NCBI GenBank assembly: GCA_001767525.1
Contig: MELF01000010.1
Coordinates: 9,224 to 42,212 of the forward strand
Reading direction: 5' to 3'
Source: Acidobacteria bacterium RIFCSPLOWO2_12_FULL_68_19
GTDB taxonomy: Bacteria > Acidobacteriota > Vicinamibacteria > Vicinamibacterales > UBA2999
DNA length: 32,989 nucleotides
Positions 17,073-22,963 of this stretch are shown here, piece by piece (the first letter of the stretch is position 1; each line of letters starts with the position of its first letter). Position numbers and translations under genes: made by a program. The notes under the pieces were generated by a model that was not told where the DNA came from, ran no database searches, and saw only the letters and a list, made by a program, of their open reading frames with translations.

Positions 17073-17513
17073 TTGCGCTGGATACCGGTCGTGCTGCTCG
17101 TCGCGGCGGCCGCGCTCGTCGCCCAGCCCGGAGGGACATGGCGCGCGGCGCCGGAGTTCCTGCCGCTATTCGCGCCCGCAGGCCCTCGCGCCGAGGCGTA
17201 CCTGGCGTACGTGTCGCCCTTCGATCTCGACACCGTCCTCGGGGAGATCGCCGCCGACCCGGCGCTCGTCCGGGTTCCGGGCGCCTGGCGGCCGCGGCCG
17301 CTGCCGCCGTCGGATGCCTTCGGCCAGACCGGCCGCTACGATCGGGGACGGCTGCTGCGCCTCTACGGCCCGACGCGCGCCCGCGTCGCCCGCGGCGCAC
17401 GGCTCGAGGACGGGCGCGTGAGGGAGGCCTGGACGCTCATCTCGCCGTATCCCCGCGCCGATCTGGCGCGGCTGGACGACGGGACGCTGCTGCTCGTCCT
17501 GCGGCTGCCGTAG
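17073..17513 (+). CDS. Small exported protein of unknown function
   Basis: A 146-residue protein with a clear N-terminal signal segment (RWIPVVLLVAAAALVAQPGG). The mature part of about 125 residues has beta-rich, charged sequence (SPFDLDTVLGEIAADPALVR; GRYDRGRLLRLYGPTRARVA). No known domain is recognised. TTG 17073 is the start, supported by GGAGG at 17063-17067. It lies 32 bp before the histidine kinase gene on the same strand and could be co-transcribed with it, so a role near the sensor is possible but unproven. Confidence 0.68.
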   Translation: MRWIPVVLLVAAAALVAQPGGTWRAAPEFLPLFAPAGPRAEAYLAYVSPFDLDTVLGEIAADPALVRVPGAWRPRPLPPSDAFGQTGRYDRGRLLRLYGPTRARVARGARLEDGRVREAWTLISPYPRADLARLDDGTLLLVLRLP

Positions 17514-17545
17514 CCCGGGACTGCGCTACGATTGCCCACGCAGGG

Positions 17546-19323
17546 ATGCGACTCACTGCCTCGCTGACCAATCGCGTCTTCCTCGCCTGCACGCTCCTGG
17601 CCACGCTCTCGCTCGGCGTCGCGTTCTACTTCGTCGACGAGCGAGCGTCGGCGGCAGCCGAAGCGGAGCTGCGGCGCGGGCTCGTCGACGCCGGGACGCT
17701 CGTCGACAGGCATGCCGCTACTCGCACCGACCAGTTCACCCGCCTGGCGCGGGTGGTGGCCGACCTTCCGAAGCTGAAAGCGGCCGTCGAGACAGGCGAT
17801 CCGCCCACCGTGCAGCCGCTCGCCGACCAGTACCGTGCCGAGATCAACGCCGACCTCCTCGTCCTCACCGGCAAGGGGGGCCGGCTGCTCGGGCGGGCGG
17901 GCGACGTCGCGGCCGACGTCCCGCCAACCTTGCGCGACGCCCAGCTGACCGAGGAGATCTCCGCCTTCCAGCCGCACGGCCGGGGCGTACTGGAGCTGGT
18001 GAGCGTCCCAATCTTCCTCGAAGGCGCGGTGCCGGACATGCTCGGCCGCCTCACGGTCGGATTCTTCCTGGACGATCGGCTGGCAGCCGAGTTCAGGGAT
18101 CTCACGGGGAGCGAGATTGCGTTCGGGGCGGAAGGGCGCATTCTCGCCTCGACGCTGCCCGCCGCGTCGCGCTCCTCGCTCGCGCCGGCGATGCACGCGG
18201 CGTCGGTCGCCTCGGTCACCCTCGGCAGCGAGGAGTACCTCGTGCTGGCGCGCCCGCTGGCGGGCGGCGGCCCGGCGGCATCGGGTGGACCCGTCGCGTT
18301 GATCCTGAGATCGCGCACCGAGCGGCTGCAGTTCCTCGACGCGATCCGCGCCGGTCTGGTCGGCGTGCTCATCGTCGCGCTGCTGCTGGCGACGCTCCTC
18401 AGCTACGGAGTGGCCCGAACGATGACGCGGCCGCTGTCGGCGATCACGACGGCGATGCGCGATGTCGCGGCCACAGGGGACCTCAGCCGGAAGGTGACGC
18501 TCGAGAGCCATGCCTGGGACGACGAGGACGCACGCACGCTGGCGGCAGCGTTCAACACGCTGACCGAGTCGATCGCCCGCTTCCAGCGCGAGGCGGCGCA
18601 GAAGGAGCGCCTCTCGTCGCTCGGCCGGCTGTCCACCGTGATCGCGCACGAGGTCCGCAACCCGCTGATGATCATTCGCGCGTCGCTTTCGACGCTGCGT
18701 CGCGAGCGCGTCTCGTCGTCGGAGCTGCGCGAGGCGGTGGCCGATATCGACGAGGAAACGACGCGGCTCAACCGGATCGTGTCGGACGTGCTCGACTTCG
18801 CGCGGCCGATCCGCTTCGAGCTCGCCGACACGGACGTGAACGAGATCTGCCGCGCCTCGGTGGAAGCGGCGTGGGCCGGCGATCGCTCGTCGGCGGTGGC
18901 GCTCGATCTCGATCCGGCCATGCCGGTCGTGATCACCGATGCCGAGCGGCTCCGTACCGCGCTGGTGAACATGCTCACGAACGCACGCCACGCCGTCAGC
19001 GCGGTCGTGCGCGCGGGCACCGGAACCGACGGCCGTACGGCGGTCGGAGACGCGGCGGCTCCGCTGGTGCGGCTTCGGACCCGCGTGCTCAACGGCCGCG
19101 TGATCATTACGATCCAGGATCACGGCGTCGGCATCGCGCCCGCGGACATGCCGCACATCTTCGACCCGTACTTCACGACGCGGCGGGCCGGCACCGGCCT
19201 TGGTCTGCCAATCGCCAGAAACATCGTCGAAGGGCTCGGCGGCACGCTCCAGGTCTCGAGCCGGCCGGGTGAGGGCACCGAAGTCCGCCTCGATCTCCCG
19301 CGATCCGCCGCACCACCCCAGGC

Positions 19324-19327
<4 letters not shown>
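17546..19327 (+). CDS. Membrane sensor histidine kinase (NtrB-like class)
   Basis: This 593-residue kinase has TM1 at residues about 8-28 and an extracytoplasmic sensor of roughly 230 residues (Cache-like; GKGGRLLGRAG and GRILASTLP suggest two PAS-like lobes). TM2 is at about 269-290 (AGLVGVLIVALLLATLLSYG), HAMP at 291-345, and the HisKA helix reads LGRLSTVIAHEVRNPLMII with phosphoacceptor near His368. The HATPase carries N-box MLTNARHAV, DHGVGIAPADMPHIFDPY and TGLGLPIARNIVEG. All kinase motifs are intact. ATG 17546 follows a possible TACGAT -10 (17527-17532) and GCAGGG. Its stop overlaps the regulator's start by 4 bp (ATGA, 19324-19327), so the two are a translationally coupled pair. The ligand is unknown. 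Confidence 0.94.
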
Positions 19328-20691
<1,364 letters not shown>

Positions 20692-20816
20692 TCTCGCCTC
20701 TTTCGCTTCGCGTTCGCACTTACCAATCCGGTAACGAGATCGCCATTCGATCGTCCGGGTTGCGCTCTTTTTCCTCTTGTTTCAGAGGGCATCCTCCTTG
20801 CTCGGCTGACGCCCGG

Positions 20817-21215
20817 ATGCGTGCACTCGTCACCCCCAGGAGACGCTGGGCCGCCTCGGTGATCCTCGGTGCGTGCGTGCCGGCCACCGGCGCGCCCTCA
20901 GCCCTTCAGTCGCCGGAACTACGCGAGATCCAGGTAGTTGCAAAGCGGTATGCGTTCGAGCCGCCCGAGATCGAGGTCACCCAAGGCGAACGGGTCCGGC
21001 TCCTGGTTCGGTCGGGCGACGGCTTGCACGGCCTCGAGATCGAGCGGTTCCGGGTATCACAGGAGATTCCACGCGGGGGTGAGCCGGTCGTCATCGAGTT
21101 CACCGCGGACGAGGCTGGACGCTATCCGATTCTGTGCTCCGTGTACTGCAGGGATGGCCATGAGGAGATGAAGGGAGCGCTCGTGGTCACCGCGCGCGCG
21201 TCTGCACAACCATAG
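20817..21215 (+). CDS. CuA-type cupredoxin lipoprotein
   Basis: This 132-residue protein has an N-terminal lipoprotein signal (VILGAC, Cys20) and a single cupredoxin domain. CuA ligands are complete as in cytochrome oxidase subunit II: His71 (GDGLHGLEI), then Cys107, Cys111, His115 and Met118 in CSVYCRDGHEEMKG, i.e. C-x3-C-x3-H-x2-M. It lacks the transmembrane hairpin of subunit II, so it is a free, lipid-anchored CuA protein. It probably accepts and passes single electrons outside the cytoplasmic membrane. ATG 20817 is the start; the upstream open frame is a shadow of the regulator gene. The cytochrome lipoprotein gene follows 13 bp downstream with a Shine-Dalgarno sequence overlapping this stop. 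Confidence 0.87.
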   Translation: MRALVTPRRRWAASVILGACVPATGAPSALQSPELREIQVVAKRYAFEPPEIEVTQGERVRLLVRSGDGLHGLEIERFRVSQEIPRGGEPVVIEFTADEAGRYPILCSVYCRDGHEEMKGALVVTARASAQP

Positions 21216-21228
21216 GAGGACACACCTT

Positions 21229-21678
21229 GTGACGACACGTCTGGGCGCCGCCCTGATTGTGGCGGCCGCATGCGCCGCCGGATGCGACGAACAGCTGGCC
21301 GACGTCGCCGGACCGACGCCGAATCTCACGCCGACGTTCTCGAGCATTCAGCGCGAGATCTTCCTGACGACCGACTCGGCCGGGCGAGCCGCGTGCGCAA
21401 ACTGCCACAATCCCAACGGCAGCGCGTTCCGCCAGGTGGGACTGGACTTGTCATCCGAGGCTGCCTACGGCCTGCTCGTCGGTGTCCCCTCGCGCGAGCG
21501 GCCGGAACTGCTGCGCGTGGCGCCTGGCGATCCCGACAACAGCTATCTCGTTCACAAGATCGAAGGCCTGGCGGGCATCGTTGGCTTGCGGATGCCCCGA
21601 AGCGGCCCGTCTTTCCTGACGAGCGGCCAGATACAGATCATCCGGCGCTGGATCGAGCGCGGTGCGCCGCGAGACTGA
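21229..21678 (+). CDS. Single-heme c-type cytochrome lipoprotein
   Basis: A 149-residue lipoprotein (signal ending CAAGC, Cys19) with one heme-c site CANCH (Cys56, Cys59, His60) and a likely distal ligand Met122 (GLRMPRSG). The pattern around it (SQREIFLTTD-like start, PGDPDNSYLVHKIEG, IRRWIERGAP end) is that of Planctomycete-type c cytochrome domains. It is predicted to be anchored outside the cytoplasmic membrane. GTG 21229 is preceded by TAGGAGGA, a strong Shine-Dalgarno sequence overlapping the upstream stop. It is part of the copper/heme/barrel cluster; together they could form an electron path to or through the outer membrane, which is inference. Confidence 0.86.
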   Translation: MTTRLGAALIVAAACAAGCDEQLADVAGPTPNLTPTFSSIQREIFLTTDSAGRAACANCHNPNGSAFRQVGLDLSSEAAYGLLVGVPSRERPELLRVAPGDPDNSYLVHKIEGLAGIVGLRMPRSGPSFLTSGQIQIIRRWIERGAPRD

Positions 21679-21692
21679 GGAGTCATACGACC

Positions 21693-22517
21693 ATGATTCG
21701 ACCGACGACGCTTGTTGCATTGATCCTCGCATGTGGTCTCGCCGCACCGCCCGCCTTCGCGCAGGCGCCGCAGGATGACCCCGATCTCGACCTCAGCTTC
21801 GAGCAGCCCGACTTCACGCTCGTCAATCTGCCCACGACGCTGCGGCTTCCCAGGTTCAAGAGCGCCTTCCGCGTCACGCACCGGTTCGGTCGGCCGCTCG
21901 GCCAGGGGGACTTCGGCGACCTGGTGGAAGACCTGTTCGGCCTCGACTCCGGCGCGCAGATCGGCCTGGAGTACCGCTTCGGCCTGATGCGCGGCCTGCA
22001 GGCGGGCATCTACCGCACCAGTGACAAGACGATCGAATTCTTCAGCCAGTACAACCTGCTGCAGCAGACCAGCGCCTCGCCGGTCGGCGTCGGCGTGCTG
22101 GCGTCGATCGACGGCACGAACAATTTTCGCGACAGCTACTCCCCGGCTCTTGGCGTGGCGATCTCGCGGACGCTTCCGCGCGTCGCGGCGCTCTACGTCC
22201 ACCCCATCTGGGTGAACAACAGCAACCCGCGCCCCTCTGAGCTGGTCGACGACAACGACACGTTCCTCCTGGGCCTTGGCGCGCGGGCTCGGATCCGGCC
22301 AACGGTCTACCTCGTTGGCGAGGTCATTCCACGCGTTGCCGGATACGACCCCGGCGTCACGCACGGCACCGTCGGCATCGAGAAGCGCGCCGGCGGCCAC
22401 ATGTTCCAGCTGAACTTCTCCAACAGCTTCGGGTCGACCATCGGTCAGCTGGCACGCGGCGGCCTCGACAACGACGACTGGTATCTGGGGTTCAATATCT
22501 CGAGGAAGTTCTTCTGA
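21693..22517 (+). CDS. DUF5777-like outer-membrane beta-barrel protein
   Basis: This 274-residue exported protein has a signal peptide (LVALILACGLAAPPAFAQA). The mature part is a series of amphipathic beta strands: SAFRVTHRFGRPLGQ, AQIGLEYRFGLMRGLQAGIYRT, KTIEFFSQYNLLQQ, LGVAISRTLPRVAALYVHP, MFQLNFSNSFGSTIGQ. It ends in Phe (ISRKFF), as expected for barrel assembly. The motif FRVTHRFGRPLGQGDFGDLVEDLFGLDSG matches the DUF5777 family as I know it. No heme or metal motif is present. ATG 21693 has GAGGAG upstream. The next start overlaps its stop by one base (TGATG), so the two are coupled. By position it would be the pore of the cluster. Confidence 0.82.
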   Translation: MIRPTTLVALILACGLAAPPAFAQAPQDDPDLDLSFEQPDFTLVNLPTTLRLPRFKSAFRVTHRFGRPLGQGDFGDLVEDLFGLDSGAQIGLEYRFGLMRGLQAGIYRTSDKTIEFFSQYNLLQQTSASPVGVGVLASIDGTNNFRDSYSPALGVAISRTLPRVAALYVHPIWVNNSNPRPSELVDDNDTFLLGLGARARIRPTVYLVGEVIPRVAGYDPGVTHGTVGIEKRAGGHMFQLNFSNSFGSTIGQLARGGLDNDDWYLGFNISRKFF

Positions 22518-22963
22518 TGCTCAGCCATTCAGGTACGGCAATGTCTGTCTTCCGCGCACCGGCACTCATGGTGGTGGCTGCCGCGTTGACCCTGGCTGCC
22601 GCGAGCTGCGGCAGGATGCGTGACGACGATGCGTACGGCGGCGGCACGCCGACCTCTCCCACGCCCGGTTCCTCGTCGAGCGCCGCCACGATCACGATCA
22701 CGTCGAGCGGCGCGTCGCCGCGTGCGGTCACCGTCTCGGTGGGATCGCGCGTGACGTTCGTGAACGACGATAGCCGCAACCACGATATGGTCTCGGATCC
22801 ACACCCAGAACATTCCGACTGCCCCCCGATCAACGACGTTGGCTTCTTGCGGCCTGGACAGAGCAAACAAACAGGCAACCTGAACACGCGGCGCACGTGC
22901 GGCTATCACGATCACGATCGGGACACGGACAGGTCGCTGCAGGGGACGATCACGATTCAGTAA
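22517..22963 (+). CDS. Plastocyanin-like cupredoxin lipoprotein
   Basis: This 148-residue lipoprotein (signal ending LAAASC, Cys31) has a Gly/Ser/Pro linker and one cupredoxin domain (residues about 57-148). Type 1 copper ligands are His89 (RNHDM) and Cys128 with His131 or His133 (RTCGYHDHD). No Met axial ligand follows. Extra His/Cys (HPEHSDC) are near the site. ATG 22517 overlaps the barrel's stop; ATG 22541 is an alternative that gives a more usual signal length. It is the last gene of the copper/heme/barrel cluster, convergent with the UPF0173 gene. A role in passing electrons with the CuA and heme lipoproteins is an inference from context. Confidence 0.82.
   Translation: MLSHSGTAMSVFRAPALMVVAAALTLAAASCGRMRDDDAYGGGTPTSPTPGSSSSAATITITSSGASPRAVTVSVGSRVTFVNDDSRNHDMVSDPHPEHSDCPPINDVGFLRPGQSKQTGNLNTRRTCGYHDHDRDTDRSLQGTITIQ

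Follow-up and report, generated by a model that had tools for sequence, protein, structure and literature searches.

The stretch of DNA analysed here (the window, 32,989 nt) comes from a soil/groundwater acidobacterium and carries a tight cluster of four genes, denoted A, B, C and D, which are listed in Table 1 together with the regulatory features upstream. Gene calls are our own choices among the open reading frames. The layout proposed in an earlier sequence-only reading was confirmed: all four genes lie on the same strand, with successive spacings of 13 bp, 14 bp and a 1-bp overlap.

Table 1. Features of the cluster and its upstream region. Positions are those of the window.
Feature	Position	Strand	Remarks
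Sensor histidine kinase (dCache_3-HAMP-HisKA-HATPase)	17543..19327	+	Domains from Pfam; start approximate, set where homology begins
NtrC-type response regulator (receiver, sigma54-activating ATPase, HTH)	19324..20691	+	
Candidate sigma54 -24/-12 promoter GGGCATCCTCCTTGCT	20787..20802	+	
Gene A, small secreted CuA-domain protein (H + CxxxCxxxHxxM ligands)	20817..21215	+	Lipid anchor uncertain
Gene B, monoheme c-type cytochrome lipoprotein (CxxCH, Met ligand), FoxE-related	21229..21678	+	
Gene C, DUF5777 12-strand outer-membrane beta barrel	21693..22517	+	PF19089 E 4.5e-30; strand count predicted in L113
Gene D, plastocyanin-fold lipoprotein, conserved H, C, CxxHDH	22517..22963	+	

The protein encoded by gene A is matched by Cupredoxin_1 above its cut-off (42.2 bits) and is closest to the CuA domains of Thermus ba3 oxidase and NosZ, the Thermus ba3 domains being its best relatives in the PDB (E ~2e-12). 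Among curated models the best names for A come from CoxB and from NosZ models at their CuA ends, and all scored far below their cut-offs because A consists of a CuA domain only. Its ligand set is complete, a CuA fold is seen in the model of a fused relative, and the ligands His, Cys, Cys, His and Met are kept in 43, 43, 42, 42 and 43 of 44 aligned A domains, respectively. Two more specific assignments were rejected. A is not an oxidase subunit, as it scored 11.6 vs 22 bits for COX2 and 33.8 vs 147.7 bits for CoxB, is small and has no adjacent cox genes; nor is it NosZ, as it has 132 aa, is matched by NosZ models at their CuA end only and carries no CuZ propeller. The sequence-only reading had described three lipid-anchored carriers, a description that holds for B and D and fails for A. 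A lipobox was found in only 7 of 43 A homologues and most of the others resemble ordinary Sec signal peptides. The anchor of A is thereby doubtful, and the CuA protein is probably not a lipoprotein in general.

Protein B has a single CxxCH and an MP motif for the distal ligand, and is matched by an NCBIfam SO2930-type cytochrome domain (E 7e-9). In the alignment of its family the CxxCH is kept in 57 of 57 sequences and the Met in 59 of 60. The lipobox Cys is conserved in at least 90% of the alignment and is directly followed by Asp-Glu. Under the Lol rule of E. coli, an Asp after the lipid Cys leads to retention in the inner membrane. The same would apply to B, although a rule established in E. 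coli may not hold in this phylum. The B family profile (A5) found only FoxE (5mab) in the PDB, with E 4.8e-11 and in two stretches that correspond to both heme halves. FoxE takes electrons from Fe(II) (PMC10654088). We read the relation as homology, from which iron oxidation does not follow, and the sole match may simply reflect that no other member of this large cytochrome family has been solved.

Protein D is less readily classified. By sequence it stays below the Cupredoxin_1 cut-off (17.7 vs 27 bits), while its AlphaFold model has a core pLDDT of ~97 and ranks plastocyanins first in a structure search. The cupredoxin fold and the conserved H, C and CxxH of a plastocyanin are all present; the axial Met is not (HDH follows the Cys), and the curated plastocyanin model scored 12.3 vs 87.85 bits. 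The Cys and His are kept in 54 of 54 domains, the first His in 51 of 56 and the lipid Cys in 55 of 56. An invariant HxxC lies near these ligands and, together with the missing axial Met, it indicates that the site is not a standard plastocyanin site. In loci L041, L053, L054 and L173 a CHRD-domain lipoprotein takes the place of D beside the barrel. Another copper protein, denoted K, adjoins the cluster in many relatives. It consists of a type-1 copper domain and CarboxypepD_reg, with the ligands H, C, H and M (37/37).

Protein C passes the gathering cut-off of PF19089 (DUF5777) with 105.1 vs 23.1 bits over residues 43-273. No published function of DUF5777/PF19089 was found in the literature searched, and comparison of the barrel profile with PDB sequences gave no credible match. 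The window protein itself has no heme motif, heme and CuA being encoded by the neighbouring genes. A model was made of L113, a CuA fusion close to the window barrel (79% barrel identity), using 82 aligned sequences (mean pLDDT 92.7, pTM 0.75). In the model a CuA domain is followed by 12 strands, which are joined by long loops at one end of the barrel and by short turns at the opposite end, and both termini as well as the N-terminal CuA domain lie on the short-turn, periplasmic side. At this pTM the placement of the CuA domain at the periplasmic end is tentative. The CuA part matches Thermus CuA with Z 16, and the barrel part matches KdgM, NanC, FapF and COG4313 channels (4rl8 among them) with Z 17-18. 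The matched proteins are small channels; a common fold does not show function. Residues invariant in 26 diverse barrels are HRF, D65, R88, E190, H216, GFN and R251; by strand order several of them fall on strands 11, 12 and 1, where they form a possible docking site. A 12-strand pore would be narrow, and its N-terminal segment may plug it.

The cluster appears to be under the control of the two-component pair listed in Table 1. The kinase is directly upstream of the NtrC regulator in homologous loci as well, and the regulator precedes A/B/C in 47 of the 70 window-clade loci with sufficient flanking sequence. A sigma54 element scoring at least 13/15 was found in 37 of 51 gaps between regulator and operon, compared to 1.9% of random windows, and nearly all of these elements are 84-159 bp past the regulator stop codon. 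Such a conserved element supports a single regulated operon. Few bases separate the promoter-like element from the ATG of A (20787-20817), similarly to several relatives, and the message may be nearly leaderless. An inverted repeat, TTACC-AATCC-GGTAA (20720-20734), lies ~55 bp upstream of the sigma54 element and is a possible binding site for the regulator.

Conservation was assessed on ~80 neighbourhoods and on another 74 loci taken from GTDB, the latter mainly from MAGs of Vicinamibacterales. Almost all of the genomes used are MAGs whose labels are absent or unreliable; the public titles of L114, L140 and L172 (Acidimicrobiia, Bifidobacterium breve and Cyanobacteria) clash with their clearly acidobacterial content. 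Of 396 genomes sampled evenly across the phylum of the window, 117 contain PF19089. The sequence-only reading had made its case depend on a conserved neighbourhood, and the order is indeed kept across homologous loci. The A/B/C/D set persists across Vicinamibacteria, often with gene loss: in the 70 well-flanked loci A, B or D adjoins C in 61, at least two of them do so in 35, and all four genes are found in 9. As homologues stand in the same order in many genomes, the cluster is not due to chance. At its most complete the locus reads P (porin-like), K, kinase, NtrC regulator, A, B, C, D. The window locus has neither P nor K, and a search of the window genome with the P protein of L124 found no P homologue. 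A K homologue (52% identity) is located beside a porin-like ORF on another contig of the same genome (G000:C5:28941-29543, L227), and the P-K pair may be a separable module. A small secreted protein upstream of the kinase (17073-17513) resembles the protein upstream of P-K in L049, a likeness which suggests that P and K were lost at the window locus. Several loci keep C alone, C and D, or C and a CHRD lipoprotein.

When barrel ORFs were read back to their starts, a redox domain was found N-terminally within the same protein in many lineages. CuA-barrel fusions occur in 14 non-redundant loci of well-separated clades and heme-c-barrel fusions, B-like or other, in ~25 loci. On the barrel tree the CuA label changes 6 times and the heme label 7 times, and well-supported (starred) branches force at least two origins of each. 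The fused heme domains are of unrelated types, namely cbb3-type CCC (L074, Pfam above cut-off), B-like (L089), CATCH...GGGPRNAFGKAF (as in L069) and CxxCH with choice-of-anchor V (L071). Barrel-fused cytochrome domains in L078, L081, L086, L087 and L103 have CxxxxCH instead of CxxCH. The fusions of CuA or heme to the barrel point to a functional tie between barrel and redox centre, and give good reason to think that A and C work together where they are separate proteins. The accompanying expectation of retained ligands was borne out by the A and B alignments given above, and not by two fused CuA domains outside Vicinamibacteria (L062 and L093), in which the ligands are degenerate. These two, together with the loci that keep only the barrel, suggest that the barrel may have functions beyond CuA.

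In order to put a number on the association, 77 acidobacterial barrels were drawn evenly. Heme-c or CuA is fused or adjacent in 62 of them, compared to 13 of 350 control genes further away (3.7%); the barrel count also takes A/B homologues within 1.8 kb and its definition thus differs from that of the control, and the gap is still large. Most of the other 15 barrels have D or a CHRD lipoprotein. In L065, L070 and L079, which belong to one acidobacterial family, a protein with 14 to 22 hemes is encoded in the vicinity of the barrel, and the barrel is followed by a membrane protein whose C-terminus weakly resembles cytochrome P460.

An alternative is that the barrel serves to export or display the lipoproteins in the manner of SLAM or FapF, with redox being incidental. 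FapF, a polypeptide transporter, is among the top structure matches, including part of the N-terminal segment (Z 18), and the partner folds vary, both of which such a platform would explain. However, the varying partners have redox activity in common, and the fusions place redox domains in cis at the N-terminus of the barrel, on its periplasmic side. Moreover, cytochromes and CuA proteins acquire their mature, folded form in the periplasm, and they are too large for a 12-strand pore. We judge this explanation highly improbable.

The second phylum searched, Bacteroidota (that of L183, titled Bacteroidia), has the barrel in 98 of 247 genomes, and there its neighbours are a monoheme cytochrome and YceI. 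In 40 sampled loci the cytochrome is within 3 genes in 32 and YceI is likewise found in 32, while 4 loci have proteins of a further family, of which the member tested (L217) is a Rieske protein. A paper on iron limitation in Riemerella gave no link to the YceI context. Since YceI is an isoprenoid/lipid-binding family, the barrel might admit or deliver a quinone, isoprenoid or aromatic compound for periplasmic oxidation or reduction by the redox proteins, with no mineral or metal respiration involved. DOMON, Reeler/choice-of-anchor and CHRD proteins also occur near barrels, and the COG4313 channel 4rl8 among the structure matches is compatible with such traffic. On the other hand, YceI was not noticed in a survey of the families that recur at acidobacterial loci, and the constant element there is a carrier of single electrons; neither a ligand-binding protein nor a catalytic domain is constant. 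We consider a small-molecule role unlikely, if worth keeping in mind.

Partner exchange also bears on copper. If the barrel were a copper porin, A, D and the linked type-1 copper protein K could bind, oxidise or hand over copper. This would account for two copper proteins in the cluster, the third adjoining it in many relatives, and the histidine-rich sequence of D. But heme or Fe-S partners take their place in Bacteroidota and in many loci of other acidobacterial classes, and no copper ATPase, CopC or CusCBA was noticed among the recurrent neighbours. The earlier suggestion of dedicated copper acquisition is weakened accordingly: outside Vicinamibacteria the partner is usually heme c and occasionally Rieske Fe-S, and at most of these loci no copper protein was seen. 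Copper handling as the role of the cluster thus seems to us distinctly unlikely.

The gene set suggests an undescribed way to pass electrons at the cell surface. Our preferred interpretation, to which we assign a probability of slightly less than one half (about 0.48), is that the cluster is a Cyc2-like outer-membrane electron gateway whose redox centre, CuA or heme, resides mostly on separate proteins. C would form a narrow barrel of 12 strands whose two termini lie on the periplasmic side. At its periplasmic mouth a one-electron centre of high potential would dock, this being the CuA protein A in the window and fused heme-c or CuA elsewhere. A small soluble redox partner, such as a metal ion in dissolved or chelated form or a small shuttle, would enter the pore and exchange an electron with the centre. 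Heme lipoprotein B and cupredoxin D could then relay electrons to periplasmic carriers and on to inner-membrane heme-copper oxidases, and the kinase/NtrC pair would turn the operon on from the sigma54 promoter. Docking, pore permeability, substrate and inward direction are the parts of this scheme that we infer. The potentials of CuA, Met-His heme and blue copper usually exceed +200 mV. These potentials and the homology of B to FoxE are our arguments for inward flow, as electron uptake toward oxygen fits them better than reduction of iron minerals does. The potential of Cyc2 has been measured at 208 mV (PMC8406198). CoxB homologues are present in the window genome and could receive the electrons. 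The YceI, DOMON, CHRD and Reeler-like partners found elsewhere fit organic redox chemistry too.

To our knowledge, the known bacterial outer-membrane electron routes are all heme-based, being either large multiheme conduits or Cyc2. We tentatively propose, with less assurance than the gateway at this locus, that DUF5777 proteins are widespread outer-membrane electron gateways, in Acidobacteriota and Bacteroidota at least, with an interchangeable centre at the pore mouth (heme c of unrelated folds, CuA, possibly Rieske), and that they include the first outer-membrane barrel with CuA. If this is true, a common uncharacterised family would gain a function, outer-membrane electron transfer would come to include copper, and an unsuspected extracellular redox metabolism would be suggested for bacteria that are abundant in soil and water. 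The natural CuA-barrel fusions make the gateway idea directly testable with one protein.

Among known systems, FoxE shares homologous heme domains with B; it is diheme, with two hemes per chain, whereas B is a monoheme lipoprotein within a barrel operon. The CuA domains of cytochrome ba3 and nitrous-oxide reductase have their fold and full ligand set in common with A, but the CuA linked to DUF5777 is free-standing or fused to a barrel and has no oxidase or NosZ catalytic domain. As to MtrAB/MtoAB, with which the sequence-only reading had compared the cluster, the combination of a barrel with outer-membrane electron carriers is similar. The MtrAB barrel has 26 strands (PMC8406198). The likeness proved weak: the cluster has one CxxCH and no multiheme genes, its barrel has 12 predicted strands, which leaves no room for an inserted carrier. 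Membership of the MtrAB/MtoAB group was therefore rejected. The Cytochrome_C554 multiheme family had no match in the window genome. A wire of the MtrAB kind, in which a carrier sits inside the barrel and electrons cross via protein-bound centres, would explain why a barrel and a cytochrome are found together, but given the strand number and partners with single centres only in the cluster we find it scarcely credible. The Cyc2/rus chain (Cyc2, rusticyanin, AcoP, c4, aa3) is a better parallel. In the model of Cyc2 a single heme sits where the porin opens to the periplasm, so that dissolved Fe2+ must enter the pore (PMC8406198), and in A. ferrooxidans its electrons pass to rusticyanin, cytochrome c and AcoP and then to the aa3 oxidase (PMC4059628, PMC10654088). 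C is not itself a member of Cyc2, which is a 16-strand porin, as it has 12 strands by the L113 prediction and, in the window, no fused CxxCH, although heme fusions occur in other DUF5777 proteins. The heme of Cyc2 is fused N-terminally, whereas here its role falls to CuA or to a heme domain of unrelated type, usually encoded by a separate gene, in an operon without cox genes. What the two systems would have in common is one redox centre at the periplasmic end of a barrel, with a cupredoxin and a cytochrome as partners.
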